Source of the DNA: Rhodopseudomonas palustris
GTDB lineage: Bacteria > Pseudomonadota > Alphaproteobacteria > Rhizobiales > Xanthobacteraceae
Direction: 5' to 3'
Length of the DNA: 64,000 nt
Assembly: GCF_003031265.1 (NCBI RefSeq)
Contig: NZ_CP019966.1
Coordinates: forward strand, 2,356,001 to 2,420,000
Shown here: piece after piece, positions 649 through 11,748 of the stretch
How the letters are laid out: every line of letters begins with the position of its first letter
Numbering within the stretch: position 1 is the first letter of the stretch
Translations under genes and position numbers: made by a program
The notes under the pieces: model-generated
Database searches by the model: none
The model's input: the letters and a program-made list of their open reading frames with translations, nothing else
What the model was told of the DNA's origin: nothing

Positions 649-1455
649 TCAGGCGTGGGCGGCGGCGTGGCGATCGTCGGCGAGCTCCGGCAGCACGAAG
701 GGCCGGCCCGCGAGGTCGGTGTTGACGGTGAGGGCGACATCGAACACGTCGGCGATCAGCTCGTGCCGCAAGACAGCGGCAGGCGTTCCGTCGGCGGCGA
801 TCCGGCCGCCACTGAGCACGATGATGCGATCGGCGAATCGGGCAGCGAGGTTGAGATCGTGCAGGATCGCGATCACGGTGGTGCCGCGACGGGCGCAGCG
901 CCGCGCGGTCTCGGCGAGATCGAGCTGGTGGCGGATGTCGAGGCTGGAGGTCGGCTCGTCGAGCAGCAGGAGCCCGGGGCCGGCGTCGGCTTCGCCGCTC
1001 CACAATTGCACCAGGATCCGGGCGAAATGGGCGCGCTGCTGCTCGCCGCCCGACAGCGTGGTGATATCGCGGTGGCGGAAATGGTCGAGGCCGACGTCAC
1101 GGAGCGCGGCGTCGAACAGCGGCGCCGCCTTACGCGGATCGATGTCCGCGCCCATCGCCACGATCTCCTCGACCGAGAACGGGAACGACACCTTGGTGTG
1201 CTGCGCCAGCATCGCGCGCCTGGTGGCAAGCGCGCGCGGCGGATAGTCGGAGAGCGCGCGGCCGTCGAGCGTGACGGTGCCGGAGGTCGGCCGTAGATCG
1301 CCGGACAGCATCCGCAGCAGGGTGGACTTGCCGGCGCCGTTGGGGCCGACGATTGCCACCAGTTCACCCTGGCTGATGGTGAGATCGACGCGATCGACCA
1401 GTGTGGCGCCGGGGAGCGCGAAGGAGGCCGCTTCGGCTTTCAGCACACCGCTCAT
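649..1455 (-). CDS. hmuV: Heme ABC transporter, ATP-binding protein
   Basis: This is the cytoplasmic ATPase that drives heme import through HmuU. The 268 residues match the usual FecE/HmuV length. Visible motifs are Walker A GPNGAGKST at about residues 37-45, the signature LSGGEQQR, Walker B LLLLDEP and a switch-region His in ILHDLNLAA. It is the last gene of hemP-hmuT-hmuU-hmuV, and its ATG overlaps the hmuU stop by 4 nt (ATGA), indicating translational coupling. The family assignment as a FecCD-type importer ATPase is firm. Heme as substrate follows from HemP, HmuT and the divergent heme receptor. Confidence 0.95.
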   Translation of the reverse strand: MSGVLKAEAASFALPGATLVDRVDLTISQGELVAIVGPNGAGKSTLLRMLSGDLRPTSGTVTLDGRALSDYPPRALATRRAMLAQHTKVSFPFSVEEIVAMGADIDPRKAAPLFDAALRDVGLDHFRHRDITTLSGGEQQRAHFARILVQLWSGEADAGPGLLLLDEPTSSLDIRHQLDLAETARRCARRGTTVIAILHDLNLAARFADRIIVLSGGRIAADGTPAAVLRHELIADVFDVALTVNTDLAGRPFVLPELADDRHAAAHA

Positions 1456-2534
1456 GGCCCCACCAACTTGCGCTGTCGTAGCAGGATGGCGAGGAAGAAC
1501 GGTGCACCGATCGCTGCGGTGAGAATGCCGATCGGCATCTCGGCCGGCGCGACGACGGTGCGCGCCACCGTGTCGGCGACGACCAACATCACCGCGCCGA
1601 GAACGGCGGAGGCGGGCAGCAGCAGCCGATGCGACGGGCCGATCACCAGCCGCAACAGATGCGGCACGACGATGCCGACGAAGCCGACCACGCCGGTGAC
1701 CGCGACCGCAACCCCGGCCATTGCCGACACCAACAGGATCGAAGTCCGCTTCAGCCGCTCGACATCGACGCCACTGTGAAACGCCTCGGTCTCGCCGAGG
1801 ACAAGCAGATCCAGCCGTCCTGCAATCCGCAACAGCACCAAGAGCGCGATCAACAGGACAGAACCGGTGGAGGCGGCCTTGGCCCAGTTGGCGCCGCTGA
1901 GCGAGCCGAGCATCCAGAAGGTGATATCGCGGAGCTGGCGATCGTCGGCCACGAACACCAGAACGCCGAGGCCGGCGTTAGCGATCGCCGCGATCGCAAG
2001 ACCCGCGAGCAGGAACAGCGCGATGGAGGTGCGGCCCGATCGGCTCGCAATCCGGTACAGCACGATGGTGGTGATCAGCGAGCCGCCGAAGGCAGCGAAC
2101 GCGAGCAGATACTCCTGCAGGACGCGGAGATGCGGGCCGAGCAGATGCTCGACCAGAACGATCGAGGCGGCCGCACCAAAGGCACCGCCGCTCGCGACGC
2201 CGACCAGCGCCGGGTCGGCCAGCGGATTGCGGAACAGGCCCTGCATCAGCGCGCCCGCTGCCGCGAGCAGGCTGCCGACGATCGCAGCGGTGAGAATCCG
2301 CGGCATCCGGATCGACCACAGCACCAGCTGATCACGCGTCGTCGCTGCATCGCCCGCGGTGCCGGTCAGTCCGAGCGCTGCGGGCAGGCGGGAGAGCGGA
2401 ATGCCGGCGGCGCCCACCGTCATCGCCAGTGCCATTGCGGCGATCAGCAACCCGCCGAGCACGGCGAGCGTGATCGCGGCGCCGGGGCGCGGCGCGCCGG
2501 CGCGGCTGCGACGGGGAAGCGCCAACACGCTCAT
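1452..2534 (-). CDS. hmuU: Heme ABC transporter permease (FecCD family)
   Basis: This is the inner-membrane channel subunit of the heme importer. The 360-residue polytopic protein has the FecCD/BtuC-type signatures LRMPRIL-like (IRMPRILTAAIVGSLLA), GALMQGLFRNPLADP and GFVGIVVPHLLRL, spread over about ten hydrophobic segments. The ATG at 2534 is chosen over an upstream TTG at 2543 because it forms the same ATGA overlap with the hmuT stop that is seen at the other junctions of this operon. The gene sits between hmuT and hmuV in a tightly coupled operon. Confidence 0.94.
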   Translation of the reverse strand: MSVLALPRRSRAGAPRPGAAITLAVLGGLLIAAMALAMTVGAAGIPLSRLPAALGLTGTAGDAATTRDQLVLWSIRMPRILTAAIVGSLLAAAGALMQGLFRNPLADPALVGVASGGAFGAAASIVLVEHLLGPHLRVLQEYLLAFAAFGGSLITTIVLYRIASRSGRTSIALFLLAGLAIAAIANAGLGVLVFVADDRQLRDITFWMLGSLSGANWAKAASTGSVLLIALLVLLRIAGRLDLLVLGETEAFHSGVDVERLKRTSILLVSAMAGVAVAVTGVVGFVGIVVPHLLRLVIGPSHRLLLPASAVLGAVMLVVADTVARTVVAPAEMPIGILTAAIGAPFFLAILLRQRKLVGP

Positions 2535-3502
2535 GAGCGACAATCGACCGTGGTGGCCTTCGGTTTGAAGCCGGCGGCCTCGGCTGCGAGCTGCGGATAC
2601 AGCTTCGATGCGACCTCGACTGCAGCCGCCGGCGTGCGCGGCCCGAAGCCGAGCAGATACAGTCCGTCCATCGCCAGGAAGGCGCGGTGCTGGCCGGCCG
2701 GCGTCAGCGCAAACGCCGGATGTGCATAGAACGCGTCGGCCTCGAAGGAATCGCGGCTGCGCTTGATCGTCAGCACGACATCGGGACGTGCCGCGACGAT
2801 CGCCTCGTCGTTGATCGCCTTGTAGCCGTCGTAACCATCGATCGCGTTGACGCCGCCGGCCAGCGCAATGATCGAATCCGCCGCGGTGTTCCGTCCGGCC
2901 GCCATCGCCTGGCCGTTGACCAGCGACATCACGAACATCACGCGAACCGGCTTGGTGATCGCGGCGCGCAGTTTGCGCAGCCTGGTGAAGTCGTCGCCGA
3001 CCGCGGAGGCGAGACAGGTCGCGGCCTTGTCGGCGCCCATGGCGTGGCCGATCAGCGCGATCTTGTCGAGCAAGCCCTGTTCGGAATACGCCTCCGGCAC
3101 GGACACCAGTGGAATGCCGGCCGAAGTGACCGCATCGATCGTCTGCTTCGGACCGGCCGAATCCATCGCAAGGATCAGGGTCGGGTTCAGTCCGATCACG
3201 CCTTCCGAGGACAATTGGCGCAAGTAGCCGACGTTAGGTTTTCCGGCGACCGCTTCGGGCGGATACACGCTGGTGGAATCGACGCCCGCAATCCGCTGCG
3301 CCAGGCCGAGATCGGCCAATACCTCGGTGATCGCGCCGCCTATCGACAGCGTGCACGAGGAATCAGCAACAGTGACGTCACGGCCGTGCGCATCGCGCAC
3401 TTTGATCTCGGCTGCGGTCGCCTGCAGAGACAAGGAGCCTGCGAGCAACGTCGCGGCGAACACAGCGGCGCGATGGCGTTTGATGTGAGCGTTCGCGGTC
3501 AT
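2531..3502 (-). CDS. hmuT: Periplasmic heme-binding protein
   Basis: This is the periplasmic receptor that captures heme delivered through the outer membrane and passes it to HmuUV. The 323-residue protein starts MTANAHIKRHRAAVFAATLL, a signal peptide cleaved near ATAAE (about residue 30). Cluster A-2 substrate-binding features follow, such as IGGAITEVLADLG, GVDSTSVYPPE and GYLRQLSSEGVIGLNPTLIL. The frame stays open upstream to 3916, but the ATG at 3502 is the start because it precedes the signal peptide and overlaps the hemP stop by 4 nt. The YPPEA segment is where HmuT proteins usually carry a heme-coordinating Tyr; that residue role is inferred from the family. Confidence 0.94.
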   Translation of the reverse strand: MTANAHIKRHRAAVFAATLLAGSLSLQATAAEIKVRDAHGRDVTVADSSCTLSIGGAITEVLADLGLAQRIAGVDSTSVYPPEAVAGKPNVGYLRQLSSEGVIGLNPTLILAMDSAGPKQTIDAVTSAGIPLVSVPEAYSEQGLLDKIALIGHAMGADKAATCLASAVGDDFTRLRKLRAAITKPVRVMFVMSLVNGQAMAAGRNTAADSIIALAGGVNAIDGYDGYKAINDEAIVAARPDVVLTIKRSRDSFEADAFYAHPAFALTPAGQHRAFLAMDGLYLLGFGPRTPAAAVEVASKLYPQLAAEAAGFKPKATTVDCRS

Positions 3503-3702
3503 TTGGTCAGGATCAGCTTGTTTTGCGAGGTGAGGCGGAGGCGGTAGCGATCGTCGCCATGCGCGATCACGATTTCCCGATCCATCGTGAATAGGTCGCG
3601 GCTGTCGATCTGATTGCCGACGATGCTGACGGCGCGCACACCACTCGGGCTCGCCCCGGCTTGCGTAGGATCTGCGCCCAATCGATCGGATGCTGTCATC
3701 AT
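3499..3702 (-). CDS. hemP: Hemin uptake protein HemP
   Basis: This is a 67-residue HemP/HmuP-family protein. Its C-terminal half carries the family core: SRDLF, then an IVIAHGD strand, then YRLRLTSQNKLILTK. Members sit at the head of heme-uptake operons and several act as activators of heme-receptor transcription. The gene is first in hemP-hmuTUV, overlaps hmuT by 4 nt, and lies about 70 bp downstream of the AT-rich motif at 3772-3786. The family call is secure. Whether this copy works as a regulator (HmuP-like) is inference. Confidence 0.88.
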   Translation of the reverse strand: MMTASDRLGADPTQAGASPSGVRAVSIVGNQIDSRDLFTMDREIVIAHGDDRYRLRLTSQNKLILTK

Positions 3703-3771
3703 TCCGCTTCTGGTGTTGTTGCTGACATCGACGTGAGCGCTTGGTTATAAGCGGTGATCCGAAAATGTGTC

Positions 3772-3786
3772 TTATAATTACTATAA
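3772..3786. promoter_or_regulatory. Candidate iron/heme regulatory site upstream of hemP
   Basis: The 15-mer TTATAATTACTATAA lies in the divergent region between hemP (minus) and hutW (plus), with TTATA/TATAA arms around 5 nt. A near-copy, TTATAATTGCTTTAA, occurs at 6211-6225 upstream of hmuR. Two copies in otherwise GC-rich DNA, each before a heme-uptake operon, suggest a shared operator, for example an Irr-type iron control element or another iron regulator. The regulator's identity is inference. The rest of the 330-bp gap (3703-4035) shows nothing else I can name. Confidence 0.5.
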
Positions 3787-4035
3787 ACGGCGCGATCGGC
3801 GCTTGAGCTTGCGCCGCGGTGCGTCGTAACTTCACGATACGCGAGGTCGAATTGTGCCTTGCGCTGTGCCAGCCAGCTCCCTGCGTTTTGCAGCGCCCGC
3901 CAGCCCCTGTTTGCAAATAACGAGTGTGATCGGATGGTCGGGCTGGCCAGTTATTCGCGCGCGCATGTGTCGGCTGACTGACCGTGCGTCGCGCGCGGTT
4001 GGCATTGCTGCCCGTTTGATGATGGAGCGCGGGCG

Positions 4036-5502
4036 GTGAGAATGGCTGAGGTGAAGCAGGGCGATCGGGTCACCGCACCGGTGCATAGCGGGCACGGGAC
4101 TATTCACGGGCACGGTGGTCATCGGGGGCATGGCACCGGTCATCCGATGTCGGTCAAGCCGGCATCGATCGGCGATTACCTGGTGCGCGTCGGCTGCGAT
4201 CCGCTCACCGAGGCGTTCGGCAAGCGCGCGTTTTCGCCGCCGTGGCGCGGCAGCCGGCCGGTGGATGAGGACAATGCCCAGGCAGTAATGGAGCGGGTGT
4301 TCGCGACGCCGCGCAGCGAGACGGCGGTGGCTTACTTGCACGTGCCGTATTGCCAAAACCATTGCCTGTTTTGCGGTTTCTTTGAGAACGTCTGGCGGCC
4401 AGAAGCCGGCCCGGCCTATGTCGACGACCTGATCGCGGAACTCGCCGCCAAGTCGCGTACGCCGCTGATCGCGAGTGCGCCGATCGATGCAATCTATATT
4501 GGCGGTGGCACTCCGTCGGCGCTTGATGCAGACGATCTGACGCGACTGATCGCGGCGCTGCACCGCTATCTGCCGCTCAGCGCCGACTGTGAGATCACCC
4601 TGGAGGGGCGGTCGTATGGCTTCGATCTCGCCAAGGCCAAGAGGCTGGCCGATGCCGGAGTCAATCGGCTCTCGATCGGCGTGCAGAGCTTTTCAACCGA
4701 GGTGCGGCGGCGGCTCGGTCGTAAGCGCACCGGTGAAGAGGTTGCGGAATTTCTTTCCGAGCTGATGGCGCAGGGCCGCACCTCTGTGGTGTGCGACCTG
4801 ATCTATGGGCTGCCGGGGCAGAGCGACGCCGATTGGCGGCGTGATATCGACACGGTTCGGCGCATCGGTCTCGATGGCGTCACGCTGTATGCACTCAATA
4901 TGTTTCCCGGCGGGCCGATGGCTCGCGCGGTAGAGAACGGCAAATTGCCGCAGCCAGCGACTCCGGCCGCGCAGGCGCGCCTCTATGCCGAAGGGGTGGA
5001 GCGGCTGACGGAGAACGGCTGGCTGCAGGTGTCGCAGTCGCATCTGGTCCGGTCGCTGCGCGAACGTAACCGCTACAATGCGTCGATCAAGCGTGGCGTG
5101 GCATGCCTGCCGTTTGGCGCCGGGGCCGGGGGGCAGGCGCATGGCCACCGCTGGCGCAACGTCATCGACATCGCGCGCCGCCGCGAGATGGTGGCGCAGA
5201 ATTTGGCGCCGATCGAAGGGCTGGCGCTGGTGCCATCCGATCATGCCGCGCACGCGATGATCGCGGCGGGGCTGGAGACCGGGCGGCTCGATCTGGCCGC
5301 GGTCGAAGCGCTGCGGCCGGGCTTTCGCGTCGCGGTCACGCCGCTGCTCGCCAACTGGACCGCTGCGGGATTGGGAGAATTGCGCGGCGATGGGTTTTCG
5401 CCGAGCCTTGCCGGATCGTTCTGGATCAGCAATCTGACCAGCGGACTGACGGCGGGACTGACGGCCGCGGCGACAGCGGGCGAGGCAGGATGCGGGTTCT
5501 GA
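4036..5502 (+). CDS. hutW: Radical-SAM anaerobilin synthase (HutW/ChuW family)
   Basis: This is an oxygen-independent heme-opening enzyme of the HemN/HutW radical-SAM group. In ChuW the enzyme methylates and linearises heme to anaerobilin and frees the iron. The 488 residues carry the 4Fe-4S motif HVPYCQNHCLFCGF (Cys 106, 110, 113), the SAM-binding IYIGGGTPSAL and the SIGVQSF segment typical of HemN-like proteins. The GTG at 4036 is preferred because a GGAG lies 8 nt upstream; an ATG at 4042 is the alternative. Oddly, residues 17-36 are very rich in His and Gly (nine His in about 20 residues). It heads an operon and overlaps the next gene by 13 nt. HemN itself is excluded by the heme-locus context. 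Confidence 0.88.
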   Translation: MRMAEVKQGDRVTAPVHSGHGTIHGHGGHRGHGTGHPMSVKPASIGDYLVRVGCDPLTEAFGKRAFSPPWRGSRPVDEDNAQAVMERVFATPRSETAVAYLHVPYCQNHCLFCGFFENVWRPEAGPAYVDDLIAELAAKSRTPLIASAPIDAIYIGGGTPSALDADDLTRLIAALHRYLPLSADCEITLEGRSYGFDLAKAKRLADAGVNRLSIGVQSFSTEVRRRLGRKRTGEEVAEFLSELMAQGRTSVVCDLIYGLPGQSDADWRRDIDTVRRIGLDGVTLYALNMFPGGPMARAVENGKLPQPATPAAQARLYAEGVERLTENGWLQVSQSHLVRSLRERNRYNASIKRGVACLPFGAGAGGQAHGHRWRNVIDIARRREMVAQNLAPIEGLALVPSDHAAHAMIAAGLETGRLDLAAVEALRPGFRVAVTPLLANWTAAGLGELRGDGFSPSLAGSFWISNLTSGLTAGLTAAATAGEAGCGF

Positions 5503-6152
5503 TTTTCGGCGCTACCGGCCGCACCGGGCGCCATCTGGTGACGCAAGGCGGCGCGCGCGGCTGGACGGTGTTCGTCGCCGGGCGCGATCTGGCGCGATTG
5601 AACGAACTCGCAGGCGTTGCGAGCGTCGATGTAGTGGACGCCAGCTCGGTCGCGGGGGCGCTGAACGGATTGAAACCGCAGGCGATCATCTCGACAATCG
5701 GCGGCGCCGGACCTGACGCACTGCTGATCGACGAAGTCGGCAACAACGCCATCACCGATGCTGCGGTGGCTTGCGGAGTGCGGCGGGTGCTGCAGGTCTC
5801 GTCGCTCGCCTGCGGCGACAGCCGCGCCTATGCGTCGGAACGAATCATCGCCGCGATCGGGCCGGTGCTCGACGCCAAGACTCGTGCGGAAGACCATCTG
5901 CGCAACGCCGCGCTCGACTGGACGATCGTGCGGCCGGGCGGACTGACCGACGGCCAGCCGACCGGGCAGGGGGCGCTGTACGACGATCCACGGGTCCATG
6001 GCCGGATCGCGCGGGCTGATCTCGCCACGCTTCTGCTCGGCGCGCTGGCGACGCCTGCCAGTATCGGCCGCGTGCTATCGGCGGTCGATCGCACCACGCT
6101 GCCGGCTGAGCCGGCCGATATCGCCGAATTCGAGCTCGCCGCAGCGGTGTGA
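5490..6152 (+). CDS. chuY: NAD(P)-binding Rossmann protein, ChuY-like anaerobilin reductase
   Basis: This 220-residue atypical SDR starts MRVLIFGATGRTGRHLV, a GxxGxxG dinucleotide motif. It continues with ISTIGGAGPD, VLQVSSLACGD and WTIVRPGGLTDG, the NAD(P)-binding/NmrA-like pattern. The ATG at 5490 lies inside the 3' end of hutW (13-nt overlap), so the two are co-translated. In enterobacteria ChuY sits beside ChuW and reduces anaerobilin with NADPH. The same gene pairing here makes that role likely, but the fold alone does not prove the substrate. Confidence 0.72.
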   Translation: MRVLIFGATGRTGRHLVTQGGARGWTVFVAGRDLARLNELAGVASVDVVDASSVAGALNGLKPQAIISTIGGAGPDALLIDEVGNNAITDAAVACGVRRVLQVSSLACGDSRAYASERIIAAIGPVLDAKTRAEDHLRNAALDWTIVRPGGLTDGQPTGQGALYDDPRVHGRIARADLATLLLGALATPASIGRVLSAVDRTTLPAEPADIAEFELAAAV

Positions 6153-6210
6153 GCGCGCGTAGCGTTACTACACGCAGATGACGTTTGAATTAGCTGCGCG
6201 CACGGACAAG

Positions 6211-6225
6211 TTATAATTGCTTTAA
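6211..6225. promoter_or_regulatory. Candidate iron/heme regulatory site upstream of hmuR
   Basis: TTATAATTGCTTTAA is the second copy of the AT-rich motif seen at 3772-3786 (13 of 15 identical). It lies about 145 bp upstream of the hmuR start, in the 218-bp gap after the chuY-like gene, and probably marks an iron-regulated promoter for the hmuR-to-tonB operon. Spacing to the start codon differs from that at hemP. The rest of the gap has no recognisable gene. Confidence 0.5.
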
Positions 6226-6370
6226 TCAATGGCCAAGTCCGGTTGACCCGGAACTTTGGCTCGGTTACCAAAATTGCAAGCCGTTAGCAGTTGTGCTGAC
6301 GGCGGATTGCCAGCCAGCCGCCTCGTGCGAGCCCGCCAGCCTGCGTCAACTCATAACACTTGGGGCTGTC

Positions 6371-8710
6371 ATGGTGGGGCTTAACTCGCGCGCCTACGCG
6401 CTACTGCTTTCTGTATCCGTCGTCGCGCTGACGAACGCGCCGGCATCGGCGCAAACCGCGACCAGTAGCTCATCATCCTCGGCCCAGACACACGTGAAGC
6501 GCGACCGTGCGGCACGTACGGCGCAGCCGGCGGCGCCCGCTGCCGATCTGCGCAACGCCAACGCACAGGCGGCTGCCTCGACCCAATCGCTCGACGCCAT
6601 CACCGTGGTGGCGACCAAGAACGAGGAGAAGGCGATCGACGCGCTGGCGCCGGCCAGCGCGATCACGCTGCAGCAGATTCAGCAGTTTCCGCCGAGCCGG
6701 CTGCAGGATGTGTTCGTCGCTACACCCGGCGTGTCGTTCCAGGATCGCGGCGACGAACCGTCGACCTCGATCAACATTCGCGGTCTGCAGGACTTCGGTC
6801 GCGTCGCCGTGGTGGTCGATGGCGCGCGGCAGAACTATCAGCGTTCCGGCCACGGCGCGCAGGGCTCGTTCTTCCTTGATCCGGAACTGATCGGCGGCAT
6901 CGACGTGGTGCGCGGGCCGAGCGCCAATATCTACGGCTCCGGCGCGATCGGCGGCGTGGTGTCGTTCCGCACCAAGGATATCGACGACGTTGTGCGCGCC
7001 GGCGAGCGTTGGGGCGTCGACCTTAGCGGCTCCTACGGCAGCAACAATGCGCGCGGGCTTGGTTCGGTGTTCGGCGGCGTGCGTGTCGATCCCAGCGTCG
7101 ATGTGTTCGGCGGCGCGGTGTATCGCACGCAGGGCAATTACAAGGACGGCGCCGGCACCGAAATCGGCAACACCGGCAACGATCTCGCCGCCGGTTTGAT
7201 GAAGTTCACGGTGCGCCCGGCCGACGGCCACGAGGTCAAGATCGGCGGTATCTTCCAGGACTTCAATTACGACGTTGGCCAGTTCAACCGCGGTCCGGTG
7301 CTGAGCGCGGCGCAACGCGCGCTGTATCAGGGCTCCTCGGTGTACGGCACCAGCCTGCAGAACTATACCGGAACCCTGAGCTGGAAATATTCACAGCCGG
7401 ACGACACCTGGTTCGATTGGAGCGTGAACCTGTATGGCAATCGCACCAACAGCGACCAGACCAAGACCTATCACTATTCGACGAGCGGTTCAGGCTATTG
7501 CGGCGCCGGCAATTACGGCAACAACATCTCCGGCTGCATCGGCGACAAGCGCGGCTACAACCTCGACACCATCGGCATCGACGCCAACAACACCTCACGG
7601 TTCGAATATGGCAACTGGCGAACCGCGGTGACCTACGGCGTTGACGCCTTTAACGACAAGGTGACGACCTGGGATTCGCGCGGCAATTCCAACATCACCA
7701 CCCCTGGCGGCGAGCGCACGGTGTCGGGCGGCTTCATCCAGGTGAAGAACAATTACGCGCACTGGCTCGAGGTGATCGGCGCCGCGCGCTACGACCACTA
7801 TGAGCTGAATTCCAATTCGTCGACCGCCAGCGGCAGCCGACTGTCGCCGAAGGTGACGCTCGGCCTGACGCCGATCGCCGGCTTCACCCCCTATGTCGCC
7901 TATGCGGAAGGCTATCGCGCGCCGTCGATCACCGAGACCCTAATAGCCGGCGCCCACGTCACCGGCGGCGGTCCGGCGCTGTTCACCTGCGGCGATGGCA
8001 CCACGGGCCTGTTCTGCCTGATCCCCAACACCGCGCTGCGGCCAGAGGTCGGCAAGAACAAGGAAGTCGGCATCAACCTGAAGTACGATGGCATCTTCAG
8101 CGCCAGCGATAGCTTCCGCGGCAAGGTCAACGCCTTCCGCAACGACGTCGACAACTATATCGAGCTGGTCGGCTCCTCCCCGCAAGTGTCGCAGCTCGGC
8201 CCGGCATACGGGCTGTACAGCAAATACTATCAGTACCAGAACATCCCGCGCGCTCGGATCGAGGGCGTCGAGGTTGAGACCAATTACGATGCCGGAATTT
8301 GGTTCGTCGGCGTCAATGCCGCGGTGATCCGCGGCACCAATCCGGACACCGGACTCGGCTTAGTCTCGGTACCAGCCCGCAAGGTGGTGACCACCGGCGG
8401 TCTGCGGCTGCTCGACCGCCAGCTGACGATCGCGGCGCAATGGGCATCCTACGCGGCCAACACCAATCTGCCGACCGGCTATCTGCCGGGAACCTCCTAC
8501 GATCTCGTCAATCTCAACGTCGCCTATCGGCCGACCGCGGACGTCACGCTGAACTTCTCGATCGATAACCTGCTCAACAACTACTATCGTCCGTATGCGA
8601 TCCCAGGCTCGTCGGCCGACGGCTCTTCGCAGAACGACATTCTGTTCAGCAGCCCTGGCCCGGGCATCGTCTATAAGGGTGGGATCAAGGTGCACTTTGG
8701 AGGAGCGTGA
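6371..8710 (+). CDS. hmuR: TonB-dependent heme/hemoprotein receptor
   Basis: This is the outer-membrane gated channel for heme. From the ATG at 6371 it has 779 residues with a clear signal peptide (MVGLNSRAYALLLSVSVV, cleaved after ASAQ). The frame is open 78 nt upstream, but that extension would bury the signal peptide. A Ser/Ala-rich linker leads to a TonB box, ITVVAT, near residue 78. Next come the plug (VFVATPGVSFQDRGDEPSTSINIRG, shown in parts as VFVATPGVSF and SINIRGLQ) and a 22-strand barrel. The heme-receptor YRAPS motif lies in YAEGYRAPSI, followed by the LRPEVGKNKE region. The partners HmuD, HutX, ExbB, ExbD and TonB follow on the same strand. Confidence 0.94.
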   Translation: MVGLNSRAYALLLSVSVVALTNAPASAQTATSSSSSSAQTHVKRDRAARTAQPAAPAADLRNANAQAAASTQSLDAITVVATKNEEKAIDALAPASAITLQQIQQFPPSRLQDVFVATPGVSFQDRGDEPSTSINIRGLQDFGRVAVVVDGARQNYQRSGHGAQGSFFLDPELIGGIDVVRGPSANIYGSGAIGGVVSFRTKDIDDVVRAGERWGVDLSGSYGSNNARGLGSVFGGVRVDPSVDVFGGAVYRTQGNYKDGAGTEIGNTGNDLAAGLMKFTVRPADGHEVKIGGIFQDFNYDVGQFNRGPVLSAAQRALYQGSSVYGTSLQNYTGTLSWKYSQPDDTWFDWSVNLYGNRTNSDQTKTYHYSTSGSGYCGAGNYGNNISGCIGDKRGYNLDTIGIDANNTSRFEYGNWRTAVTYGVDAFNDKVTTWDSRGNSNITTPGGERTVSGGFIQVKNNYAHWLEVIGAARYDHYELNSNSSTASGSRLSPKVTLGLTPIAGFTPYVAYAEGYRAPSITETLIAGAHVTGGGPALFTCGDGTTGLFCLIPNTALRPEVGKNKEVGINLKYDGIFSASDSFRGKVNAFRNDVDNYIELVGSSPQVSQLGPAYGLYSKYYQYQNIPRARIEGVEVETNYDAGIWFVGVNAAVIRGTNPDTGLGLVSVPARKVVTTGGLRLLDRQLTIAAQWASYAANTNLPTGYLPGTSYDLVNLNVAYRPTADVTLNFSIDNLLNNYYRPYAIPGSSADGSSQNDILFSSPGPGIVYKGGIKVHFGGA

Positions 8711-8747
8711 CGGTCCGGCTCCAATCGAAGCCTGAACGGCGCGCCAG

Positions 8748-8777
8748 AACAACAAGCCAGCAAACAACAAGCCAGCA
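8748..8777 (+). repeat. Perfect 15-bp tandem duplication before hmuD
   Basis: AACAACAAGCCAGCA occurs twice head to tail and ends directly at the AAGGAG ribosome-binding site of the monooxygenase gene. The 77-bp gap between hmuR and that gene otherwise has no feature. Confidence 0.85.
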
Positions 8778-8787
8778 AGGAGAGAAG

Positions 8788-9120
8788 ATGTTCATCGCGA
8801 TGAATCGGTTTCAAGTGAAACGCGGCGCCGAGCAGACCTTCGAGGAGATCTGGGCGACGCGGGAATCCTATCTCAGCGAGATGGACGGTTTCGTGGAGTT
8901 TCATCTGCTCAAAGGGCCGGTCGCGGACGACCACACCCTGTATGCGACCCACACCATGTGGGCCAGCAAGGCGGCGTTCGAGGCATGGACCACGTCCGAC
9001 CAGTTCCGCCGTTCGCATGCGCGGGCCGGCAACGACACCGGGCAGAGCCTGTATCTCGGGCATCCGCGGTTCGAAGGGTTTGAAGTGATCCGTAGCGAGC
9101 GCAACGCCGCTGCGGCCTGA
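8788..9120 (+). CDS. hmuD: Heme-degrading monooxygenase (IsdG/HmuD-type ABM fold)
   Basis: This is a 110-residue antibiotic-biosynthesis-monooxygenase-fold protein. It reads MFIAMNRFQVKRGAEQTFEE, then SYLSEMDGFVEFHLLKG, then YATHTMWASKAAFEAWTTSDQF and SHARAG. The late His in FRRSHARAG fits the proximal heme-ligand position of IsdG/HmuQ/HmuD enzymes, which open heme with oxygen. The ATG at 8788 has AAGGAG 5 nt upstream; an open frame upstream to 8707 lacks a better start. It lies between hmuR and hutX, so an aerobic heme oxygenase role is likely. The symbol could equally be hmuQ. Confidence 0.82.
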   Translation: MFIAMNRFQVKRGAEQTFEEIWATRESYLSEMDGFVEFHLLKGPVADDHTLYATHTMWASKAAFEAWTTSDQFRRSHARAGNDTGQSLYLGHPRFEGFEVIRSERNAAAA

Positions 9121-9136
9121 GATAAGGAGAGAAGTG

Positions 9137-9673
9137 ATGGCGACTGCAGCGGCATCGGTGGTGTCCTCCGAGACCGGCGATCTTCGTGCCTATATGGCTG
9201 CCAACCCGGCCGCTGTGATCGAGGAGGTCGCCAAACAGTGGAACGTGTCGCCGCATGCGGTGATCGCGGCGCTGCCGGACGGCATGGCGCGGCTCGGTCC
9301 CGGTGACGGCTTCGTTGCTGCGATGAAGGACATCGCCACCTGGGGCGAGGTGACGCTGATCGTGCACACCGAGGACGCGATCTTCGAATTCACCGGCGAG
9401 GTGCCGCGCGGTGAGATCAGCCGCGGCTATTTCAACCTGATGCAGCCGAAGGGCCTTCACGGCCACTTGCGTCACGATCGTTGCGGCGCGCTGGCGTTCG
9501 TCGAGCGCCCGTTCATGGGCAAAGCGAGTGCCTTCGTGGCGTTCCTCAACCAAGACGGCGGCATCATGTTCAAGGTGTTTGTCGGCCGTGACGCCAATCG
9601 CGAGCTGCGCGTCGATCAGCTCGTCCGCTTCCATGCGCTCGCCAAGCAATTCAGCGAGGAACGCGGTGCGTAA
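9137..9673 (+). CDS. hutX: Cytosolic heme utilisation carrier HutX/ChuX
   Basis: This 178-residue heme-binding protein of the HutX/ChuX group (ChuS/HemS half-fold) is thought to pass heme from the importer to degrading enzymes and to buffer free heme. Recognisable parts are the N-terminal helical segment VIEEVAKQWNVSPHAVIAAL, the strand EVTLIVHTEDAIFEFTGEVP, and FNLMQPKGLHGHLRHDRC. A conserved-looking MFKVFVGRDANREL follows. The ATG at 9137 has AAGGAG 7 nt upstream; the GTG immediately before it is less likely. The 3' end overlaps the GTG start of exbB by 8 nt. Confidence 0.9.
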   Translation: MATAAASVVSSETGDLRAYMAANPAAVIEEVAKQWNVSPHAVIAALPDGMARLGPGDGFVAAMKDIATWGEVTLIVHTEDAIFEFTGEVPRGEISRGYFNLMQPKGLHGHLRHDRCGALAFVERPFMGKASAFVAFLNQDGGIMFKVFVGRDANRELRVDQLVRFHALAKQFSEERGA

Positions 9674-10454
9674 CTCCGAAGGCGCCGCGGCAGGGTGGGC
9701 GGGCGCGGCGCTCGCCGTCATCGCCGTGGCGCTGCCGGGGGATGCGTGGGCGGCTGCCGATCTGGCGACGCTGCCGCGCGACCTGTCGCCGTGGGGGATG
9801 TTCCTCGGCGCCGACGCGGCGGTGAAGACCGTGATGGTCGGGCTGGCGCTCGCGTCACTGGCGGCCTGGACGGTGTGGCTCGCCAAGTCGATCGAACTGC
9901 GCCGCAGCGTTGCGGTGGCGCAGCGGGGTCTCGACCGGCTGGAGAGCGAGATCACGCTGCAGCAGGCCGCGGCGGAGACCGCCGATCAGCATGACGCAGT
10001 GGCCCAAATGATCCAGACCGTCGATCGCGAGGCCAGCCTGTCGGGCGGTACCCATGACGAAGGTTTTCGCGAGCGCGTGGCGCTGCGGCTCGAGCGGGTC
10101 GAGGCGGCGGAAGCCCGCCGCGCCGCGATCGGCACCGGTCTGCTCGCAAGCATCGGCGCGGTGGCTCCGTTCGTCGGACTGTTCGGCACGGTCTGGGGGA
10201 TCATGAACGCGTTCATCGGCATCTCGAAAGCCAACACCACCAATCTTGCGGTGGTGGCGCCGGGCATCGCCGAGGCGCTGCTCGCCACCGCGCTCGGGCT
10301 CGTCGCCGCGATCCCGGCAGTGGTGATCTACAATCATCTGACGCGGCGGGTGACGGCATATCGCGCGCTGCTCGGCGACGCGTCCACCCAATTGCTGCTG
10401 ATGATCAGCCGCGAGGCGGCGCGTCCGCCGCAGCGCGCTCGCGTGGTGAGGTGA
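9666..10454 (+). CDS. exbB: TonB-system proton channel subunit ExbB
   Basis: This inner-membrane subunit harvests proton motive force for TonB. The GTG at 9666 lies inside the hutX 3' end, with GAGGA 5 nt upstream, and gives 262 residues. An N-terminal signal-like stretch (AALAVIAVALPGDAWAA) is followed by TM1 (VMVGLALASLAAWTVWLAKS) and a long helical cytoplasmic loop. The ExbB/TolQ signature follows, with TM2 around IGAVAPFVGLFGTVWGIMNA and TM3 around ALLATALGLVAAIPAVVIYN. An open frame continues upstream to 9528 but only as a shadow of hutX. It belongs to a coupled hutX-exbB-exbD-tonB string. Confidence 0.93.
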   Translation: MRNSEGAAAGWAGAALAVIAVALPGDAWAAADLATLPRDLSPWGMFLGADAAVKTVMVGLALASLAAWTVWLAKSIELRRSVAVAQRGLDRLESEITLQQAAAETADQHDAVAQMIQTVDREASLSGGTHDEGFRERVALRLERVEAAEARRAAIGTGLLASIGAVAPFVGLFGTVWGIMNAFIGISKANTTNLAVVAPGIAEALLATALGLVAAIPAVVIYNHLTRRVTAYRALLGDASTQLLLMISREAARPPQRARVVR

Positions 10455-10897
10455 ACCCGATGGCCGTCAAGCTTGCGAGCCGCCGCGGCGGCGAAGACGA
10501 CATGGTCGAGGCGCACGAGATCAACGTCACGCCATTCATCGATGTGATGCTGGTGCTGCTGATCGTCTTCATGGTGGCGGCGCCGCTGGCGACCGTCGAT
10601 GTCGGCGTCGATCTGCCGGCCAGCACGGCCGCGCCGCAGCCGCGGCCGGAGAAACCGGTCTTCGTGTCGCTGAGGCCCGATCTGTCGCTGGCGCTGGGGG
10701 AGGAGATGGTGCCGCGTGAGGGACTGACCTCGGCGCTCGACACCGCGACCGGCGGTAACAAGGACGAGCGGATCTTCCTGCGCGCCGACAAGGCGGTGAG
10801 CTACGGCGATCTGATGGCGGCGATGAATCTGCTGCGCGATGCGGGCTATCTGAAGGTGGCGCTGGTCGGACTCGACGGCCGCGCCGTTCAGCCGTGA
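10451..10897 (+). CDS. exbD: TonB-system subunit ExbD
   Basis: This 148-residue single-pass partner of ExbB has the family core INVTPFIDVMLVLLIVFMV. The Asp in FIDVM is the proton-path residue conserved in ExbD/TolR. A periplasmic domain follows (LPASTAAPQPRPEKPVFVSL onward, with VSYGDLMAAMNLLRDAGYLK). The GTG at 10451 overlaps the exbB stop by 4 nt; an ATG three codons later is possible. Confidence 0.93.
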   Translation: MNPMAVKLASRRGGEDDMVEAHEINVTPFIDVMLVLLIVFMVAAPLATVDVGVDLPASTAAPQPRPEKPVFVSLRPDLSLALGEEMVPREGLTSALDTATGGNKDERIFLRADKAVSYGDLMAAMNLLRDAGYLKVALVGLDGRAVQP

Positions 10898-11748
10898 ACG
10901 CCCGCGCGCTGCACGACAGCGCGGCGGCGCAGGGCGCGTCGCGGTGGCTGCTGTCGGCGGCGGTGATCGTCGGCGTGCACGCGGTGGCGGTGGCAGCCGC
11001 GTTGGCGTACTACGCGCAAGTGCCGCCGCCGGGCGAACCGCTGGCTGCAATCATGATCGATCTTGCGCCGATGACGGCATCGCCGCAGCCGAGCCCGCTC
11101 GATCTGCCACCGGGCCCGGAGATGCAGGAGGCGGAGGCGCCGCAGTCGGAACCCGAGCCGGTGCAGCACACCGCCGCAGTGCCCGAAATCGCACCAACCC
11201 CGATCCAACAGAACGCCGAGGTGCCGCTGCCGCCGGAGGCGAAGCCGTCACTCCCGGACAAGCCCGAAGCGGTGAAGCTCGAAAAGCCCGAGCCGGCGAA
11301 GCCGAAGCCGGAGCGGCCAAAGCCGGAGAAGCGCGAGCGCGTCGTCAAACAGAATTCGTCGGACCGTCCGCCGGCGCCGCGAACCAGCGCGCCGCAACGT
11401 GCCGAACGCCGCGCCGCCGACGCGATGGCGGCGCTTGCCGGCGCCCAGGCGGCAGCCGCGATGCTGCCGAGCTATCGTCAGCGCCTCGCGGCTCATCTGC
11501 AGCGCTTCAAGCGCTATCCGACCGAGGCCCGCGCCAGCGGCGTGCAGGGCACTGCGACCTTGAGCTTCACCGTCGGCCGCGGCGGGCAAGTGCTGAGTGC
11601 AAGGCTCGCGCGCTCCTCCGGCCACCCTGCGCTCGATGCCGAAACGCTGGCGATGGTCAGCCGTGCCCAGCCGCTGCCGCCATTCCCGCCGGAGATCACC
11701 CAGGCTTCGCTGAATTTCAGCGTGCCGGTCAACTTCTCCGTCAGGTAG
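10894..11748 (+). CDS. tonB: Energy transducer TonB
   Basis: This protein couples the ExbBD motor to HmuR. The 284 residues start at a GTG overlapping the exbD stop by 4 nt. A single N-terminal TM segment (LLSAAVIVGVHAVAVAAALA) is followed by a long Pro/Glu/Lys-rich periplasmic spacer (about residues 55-165). The C-terminal TonB domain contains RYPTEARASGVQGTATLSF and ends with PLPPFPPEI. Its place at the end of the hmuR operon suggests a TonB dedicated to heme uptake. No strong terminator with a T-run is visible in the 250 bp after it. Confidence 0.93.
   Translation: MNARALHDSAAAQGASRWLLSAAVIVGVHAVAVAAALAYYAQVPPPGEPLAAIMIDLAPMTASPQPSPLDLPPGPEMQEAEAPQSEPEPVQHTAAVPEIAPTPIQQNAEVPLPPEAKPSLPDKPEAVKLEKPEPAKPKPERPKPEKRERVVKQNSSDRPPAPRTSAPQRAERRAADAMAALAGAQAAAAMLPSYRQRLAAHLQRFKRYPTEARASGVQGTATLSFTVGRGGQVLSARLARSSGHPALDAETLAMVSRAQPLPPFPPEITQASLNFSVPVNFSVR

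Follow-up and report, generated by a model that had tools for sequence, protein, structure and literature searches.

Why would a bacterium keep one enzyme that opens heme without oxygen and another that needs oxygen within a single locus? The question is raised by a stretch of 64,000 nucleotides (nt) of the Rhodopseudomonas palustris genome, hereafter the window, which covers positions 2,356,001-2,420,000 of a single contig of 5.27 Mb. The window contains a divergent heme-import cluster, and the right half of this cluster carries hutW, encoding a predicted radical S-adenosylmethionine (SAM) enzyme, a chuY-like gene, hmuQ, encoding a predicted IsdG-type enzyme, and hutX. We consider it likely that this is a locus for heme import and iron release with two interchangeable last steps, and that oxygen would choose between the two arms at the level of the enzymes. 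An earlier note on this DNA had named the four genes; they are real and lie on one strand:

4042..5502 (ATG) or 4036-5502 (GTG), plus strand: hutW, predicted radical-SAM anaerobic heme-opening enzyme (TIGR04107 541.6 bits, cut-off 400; alignment)
5490..6152, plus strand: chuY-like gene, predicted anaerobilin reductase, with a 13-nt overlap with hutW (5guy ChuY 88.2 bits; PF13460 123 bits)
8788..9120, plus strand: hmuQ, predicted IsdG-type oxygen-dependent heme-degrading enzyme (NF053649 149 bits, cut-off 130; N6/W67/H77)
9137..9673 (start 9134 also possible), plus strand: hutX, cytosolic heme carrier (TIGR04108 199.5 bits, cut-off 110; PDB 2ph0, 2ovi ChuX)

Two predicted heme-opening enzymes

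The product of hutW passes the cut-off of its family, whereas its scores against the HemW and HemN families (138 and 112 bits, respectively) fall below theirs. Among 14 control genomes, E. coli alone scored above the TIGR04107 cut-off. The CxxxCxxC motif that had been read in the protein is present as C104/C108/C111 (numbered from 4042), and both this motif and GGGTP are invariant in all 13 aligned sequences, the one of the window included. The closest named HutW is that of Rhodopseudomonas sp. BR0M22 (93% over 446 columns), within a Rhodopseudomonas group that has full support in the Shimodaira-Hasegawa-like approximate likelihood-ratio test (SH-aLRT). Elsewhere, the same genome contains a HemW-like fragment of 269 bits (HemW cut-off 205) and a HemN-like fragment of 276 bits, which stays below the whole-protein cut-off of 325 because only 242 residues were scanned. 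Since HemN-like and HemW-like genes thus occur elsewhere, it appears unlikely that HutW is needed for heme synthesis, and we rejected an assignment of HutW to HemN or HemW on the family scores and the presence of these separate genes. A histidine-rich stretch precedes the family domain of HutW (window 4060-4160). It also occurs in several other Rhodopseudomonas and is strong in one Rhodoplanes (11 histidines in 58 residues), and it is weak or absent in others of 19 loci.

For HmuQ, the best start is at position 8788, giving a protein of 110 residues, rather than the GTG at 8707; the IsdG-fold monooxygenase of the earlier note passes the NF053649 cut-off. The residues N6, W67 and H77, whose register was set by alignment with IsdI and by the spacing in LFO1, are kept in 29 of 29 sequences. 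This triad is described as required for IsdG-type heme degradation (PMC5557675). The assignment of HutX as the carrier stands as well, with a score well above its family cut-off. The ChuY-like protein passes none of the curated NCBIfam cut-offs. Among solved structures, ChuY (5guy, 88.2 bits) and the ShuY-like 5ffq (87.7 bits) match it best, the next reaching 45.9 bits; it also aligns with a ChuY-like protein of Yersinia, encoded next to HutX, with 33% over 199 columns. The proposal that one locus encodes two heme-opening chemistries is therefore upheld by homology, that is by the family cut-offs and the ChuY match, and it concerns a genome that carries pufM and bchE; the activities of HutW, HmuQ and the ChuY-like protein are predictions from homology.

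A third heme-opening enzyme is encoded outside the window. Its gene (L117, G000:C1:1653122-1653709) lies about 11 kb from pufM, next to genes for a B12-binding protein and a phytochrome (PHY domain). The enzyme belongs to the canonical heme oxygenases (PF01126, 173 bits) and presumably supplies the phytochrome with biliverdin.

HutW and HmuQ across genomes

In the family to which the window belongs, HutW scores above the cut-off in 15 of 119 genomes and HmuQ in 80. The co-occurrence search that the earlier note had called for found HmuQ in all 15 HutW genomes, versus 65 of the 104 without HutW (Fisher p 0.0016, with kinship uncorrected and the window included). The two genes lie within about 18 kb of each other in 14 of the 15 genomes, and 1.5 Mb apart in the other (G096).

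The pairing extends beyond the family. We analyzed named loci, namely the best 80 of 431 by similarity to the HutW of the window, some of which are shorter than 10 kb on one side. Within 10 kb of HutW, HutX was found in 68, a ChuY-like protein in 37 and HmuQ in 28, using phmmer limits that we set at 70, 60 and 75 bits, respectively, on stop-to-stop frames. The gene order in Rhodopseudomonas is like that in the window; in other genera, either hmuU-hmuV-hutW faces hmuR and hmuQ, or the order is hmuR-hmuQ-hutX-hutW. In two Roseospira, Roseospirillum and a metagenome-assembled genome of Rhodospira, HmuQ is the nearest upstream neighbor of hutW among the genes sought. On the HutW tree, which was built by a quick method without bootstraps, the linkage requires at least 8 changes, 6 of them forced by starred branches; it recurs on several HutW branches. 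In Rhodoblastus sphagnicola, the order hmuR-hmuQ-hutX-hutW occurs twice, in similar loci located on separate contigs (L059 and L070).

Among 50 named HutW genomes, 32 contain HmuQ above the cut-off and 35 at E <= 1e-12. None of the 50 has HutZ (TIGR04110) above the cut-off and two have weak matches, in a search that held no positive control genome and did not include the genome of the window. The HutZ family also gave no match among the ten locus proteins scanned, a set without hmuU and hmuP.

Several observations weigh against a locus built around two interchangeable steps. Firstly, HmuQ above the cut-off is missing from 18 of the 50 named HutW genomes (three of them with a weaker match), and 52 of the 80 named loci have no HmuQ inside 10 kb, some of these loci being short. 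The pairing is therefore common, not obligatory. Secondly, in G096 HmuQ is divergent from a ChuY homologue, near exbB-exbD-tonB (L030, 8230-9656). This arrangement indicates that the linkage can be lost, and that ChuY may serve another bilin, the product of HmuQ included. Thirdly, HmuQ alone might suffice for obtaining iron, with HutW serving the detoxification of heme.

Link with phototrophy

The distribution of HutW within the family follows in part that of the photosynthetic reaction centre. The pufM gene occurs in 17 of the 119 genomes, and HutW is found in 12 of these 17, versus 3 of the 102 without pufM. At the level of genera, for which the tables were counted by hand, HutW occurs in 6 of 47, pufM in 6 of 47 and the two together in 3 (one-sided Fisher p 0.021). 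When bchE is required as well, HutW occurs in 3 of 5 genera (p 0.011, also counted by hand). We regard this association as suggestive only. Of the five pufM genomes in the family that do not have HutW, two lack bchE and three contain it; taken as a sign of anaerobic phototrophy, bchE accounts for the HutW distribution only in part. A class-level sample of 289 genomes contained HutW once, in the genome of the window itself, pufM 19 times and HmuQ 37 times, which gives too little power for the relation between HutW and pufM. In the named loci, 23 of the 28 with linked HutW and HmuQ, ten of them Rhodopseudomonas, belong to genera that we take to be anoxygenic phototrophs, and the HutW family is spread, among these best 80 of 431 loci, over many genera that are presumably purple phototrophs.

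Layout of the locus

The remaining genes of the divergent cluster comprise the leftward hmuP, hmuT, hmuU and hmuV, and the rightward hmuR, exbB, exbD and tonB; rightward, the full order is hutW, chuY-like, hmuR, hmuQ, hutX, exbB, exbD, tonB:

649..1455, minus strand: hmuV, heme ABC transporter ATPase (NF010068 319 bits, cut-off 261)
1452..2543, minus strand: hmuU, permease, start uncertain (open reading frame (ORF), named by position and sequence; order kept in relatives)
2531..3502, minus strand: hmuT, periplasmic heme-binding protein, start uncertain (PF01497 97.5 bits on ORF 2531-3916)
3499..3699, minus strand: hmuP/hemP, small heme-uptake regulator, with a 4-nt overlap with hmuT (PF10636 65.4 bits, cut-off 25)
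6371..8710, plus strand: hmuR, TonB-dependent heme receptor (ORF open from 6293, signal-like peptide at 6371; TIGR01785 627.8 bits)
9666..10454, plus strand: exbB, start uncertain (ORF open from 9528; TIGR02797 299.5 bits)
10451..10897, plus strand: exbD (TIGR02803 222 bits)
10894..11748, plus strand: tonB (TIGR01352 74.6 bits)

An Rfam scan of the window gave no match above the gathering scores. The 13-nt overlap between hutW and the chuY-like gene noticed earlier is exact (5490-5502). In ten named Rhodopseudomonas loci, for which the starts were guessed, the nearest likely chuY start follows the hutW stop by 17-61 nt in eight and overlaps hutW by 4 nt in two. A conserved overlap was therefore rejected: an ATGA is present at the chuY start of the relatives, and the stop within it is mostly not that of hutW.

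Promoters and control by oxygen

Two copies of a promoter box were found in the window by motif scan:

3772..3786, no strand assigned: promoter box TTATAATTACTATAA, between hmuP and hutW, conserved in Rhodopseudomonas
6211..6225, no strand assigned: second box copy TTATAATTGCTTTAA, upstream of hmuR

These two matches to the box TTATAATNNCTNTAA, at 3772 and 6211, compare with 0.04 expected in the window. At up to one mismatch, the box has 20 matches in 37 named loci (714,096 bases), of which 19 are located in the hutW and hmuR promoters of ten Rhodopseudomonas loci and one in a Rhodoplanes hmuP-hmuR region. In the twentieth Rhodopseudomonas promoter (L040, upstream of hutW), the best box has two mismatches. 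Outside Rhodopseudomonas, the box is absent at this threshold from 26 of 27 loci, and no match appeared in any of three base shuffles made from 27 of the loci. The box resembles what we take to be the Irr box, or iron control element (ICE), from which the copies in the window differ at 3-4 of 15 positions. Because the box is common to both promoters, a single iron/heme signal is predicted to govern both arms. Iron regulation of the locus, as proposed earlier, is thus a prediction drawn from a promoter motif. The rightward genes probably form two transcription units, since 218 nt with their own box separate the end of chuY (6152) from the likely start of hmuR (6371).

No oxygen switch in the form of a FixK/FNR box was found at the locus. 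TTGAT-N4-ATCAA, the FixK/FNR box, had no match at up to two mismatches in the two intergenic regions of the window, and TTGA-N6-TCAA had none at up to one mismatch in both promoters of the window and of ten named Rhodopseudomonas loci, also when the regions were widened. Direct control of the locus by FixK/FNR was therefore rejected. Based on the absence of such a box and the presence of one box common to both promoters, it is most likely that oxygen selects the enzyme chemically, and not by transcription at the locus. Of the oxygen-switched pathway proposed in the earlier note, the two chemistries hold by homology, but no FixK/FNR switch was found at the locus.

The process that we propose would run as follows. 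Heme would enter through HmuR-TonB-ExbBD and HmuTUV, and would be carried by HutX, presumably to both enzymes. In the presence of oxygen, HmuQ would open the heme ring using O2. In its absence, HutW would open the ring by radical-SAM methylation, yielding a product of the anaerobilin type, which would be reduced by the ChuY-like protein. A need for iron or heme would turn on both arms together through the shared box (Irr/HmuP type), whose binder is putative. Oxygen, being the co-substrate of HmuQ and the agent that would inactivate the iron-sulfur cluster of HutW, would then choose the arm. In this respect, the [4Fe-4S] cluster of ChuW is reported to be readily inhibited by oxygen (PMC12670364).

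It is possible, though in our view unlikely, that oxygen acts by a relay: FixK, active at low oxygen, would induce one of two Irr paralogs, the one lacking a GCPW motif, and this paralog would putatively act on the shared box at both promoters, so that oxygen would reset the iron control of the whole locus. The genome contains two Irr-like genes, L114 (G000:C1:2553964) and L115 (465392). Two exact TTGA-N6-TCAA boxes are located just upstream of L114, and L115 has none at up to one mismatch. GCPW, which we take to be the heme-regulatory motif of Bradyrhizobium Irr, is present in L115 and absent from L114. However, Irr is a putative binder of the box, whose copies in the window differ from the ICE consensus as given above. 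In R. palustris TIE-1, Rpal_2583 (Fur-family, "possibly Irr"; its match with L114 is putative) was 13- to 92-fold up anaerobically. Of six conditions, four showed lower levels of it in a fixK mutant, but the other two showed higher levels, 4.3-fold on 4-hydroxybenzoate and 1.5-fold on Fe(II) (PMC3050613). In addition, a box present at both promoters would not on its own set the two enzymes apart. In a wider proposal, HutW and HmuQ would form a heme-iron module with two chemistries that arose repeatedly among facultatively anaerobic purple phototrophs. The relay would act on its shared box, and heme use in anoxic light would be set by the GCPW-less paralog instead of the heme-responsive one; to this proposal as a whole we give little probability.

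Other functions of HutW

We think it improbable that HutW serves chiefly to detoxify excess heme or porphyrin when oxygen is absent, or to demetalate heme, with iron being gained through HmuQ and other uptake systems, even if the large tetrapyrrole flux in phototrophs would fit such a role. Anaerobic degraders are increasingly viewed as detoxifiers, and one report holds that protoporphyrin is a true product of ChuW (PMC12670364). However, hutW sits with uptake genes and has its box in common with hmuR, which fits the import of external heme better. The alternative that the radical-SAM gene encodes merely a coproporphyrinogen dehydrogenase or an inactive homologue, raised by the earlier note itself, is extremely improbable: although HemN is the closest solved relative of HutW by sequence (1olt, 104.7 bits), the family scores, the separate HemN-like and HemW-like genes of this genome, the invariant CxxxCxxC and GGGTP motifs and the presence of HutX near HutW in 68 of 80 loci all argue against it.

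Comparison with known systems

Other bacteria are already known to combine an anaerobic with an aerobic heme opener. The name HmuQ, that of the NCBIfam family matched here, is shared with a protein of Bradyrhizobium, reportedly treated together with HmuD by Puri and O'Brian in 2006. Unlike in the window, HmuQ often occurs without HutW, as in 65 of the 104 HutW-less genomes of the family.

The earlier assumption of a single chemistry in most known systems is wrong, since hutWXZ of V. cholerae and chu of E. coli both pair the two (PMC12670364). In the Fur-regulated V. cholerae operon, as in the window, an anaerobic HutW, the carrier HutX and an oxygen-dependent degrader stand together, and HutX feeds the oxygenase HutZ aerobically and HutW anaerobically (PMC12670364). 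Unlike in the window, the oxygenase belongs to another family, and no ChuY is described in the operon. The chu genes of E. coli O157:H7 (chuAS, chuTWXYU-hmuV) likewise place ChuW, ChuX and ChuY beside uptake genes, but there heme is degraded aerobically by ChuS, which is not of the IsdG type and whose anaerobic role is debated (PMC12670364). The hmu locus of Fusobacterium nucleatum (HmuW, HmuF) and related clusters also hold a HutW homologue in a heme-uptake locus, and the heme oxygenase HugZ is named beside HmuW among heme-uptake cluster products (PMC10404700); HmuF there takes the place of the carrier and ChuY, and HugZ is a different enzyme from HmuQ.

The alphaproteobacterium Hyphomicrobium denitrificans has predicted anaerobic ChuW-ChuX-ChuY and aerobic HmoA enzymes, with opposite transcript shifts in repressor mutants, chuW going down and hmoA up (PMC12423496). 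Its HmoA genes, however, have distant locus tags (Hden_0541 and 0875, versus 0599-0601). In the papers drawn on, this organism is the exception in a literature on anaerobic heme opening that deals mainly with gut, oral and fish pathogens. Neither the HutW-HmuQ pair nor HutW in purple bacteria appeared in the titles and abstract openings of the full-text matches listed, a search with most subscription journals outside it, and in the text seen of papers naming both HmuQ and ChuW, HmuQ stood only in reference lists.

In comparison with these systems, what differs here is the IsdG-type HmuQ as the aerobic partner, in a module that recurs in purple bacteria, and this combination looks new. HutW reaches many purple-bacterial genera, and in the family of the window it is concentrated in genomes with genes for a photosynthetic reaction centre. 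As purple bacteria of this kind are easily handled, are not pathogens and switch between oxic and anoxic growth, the division of labor assumed for anaerobic and aerobic heme openers becomes testable in one organism.

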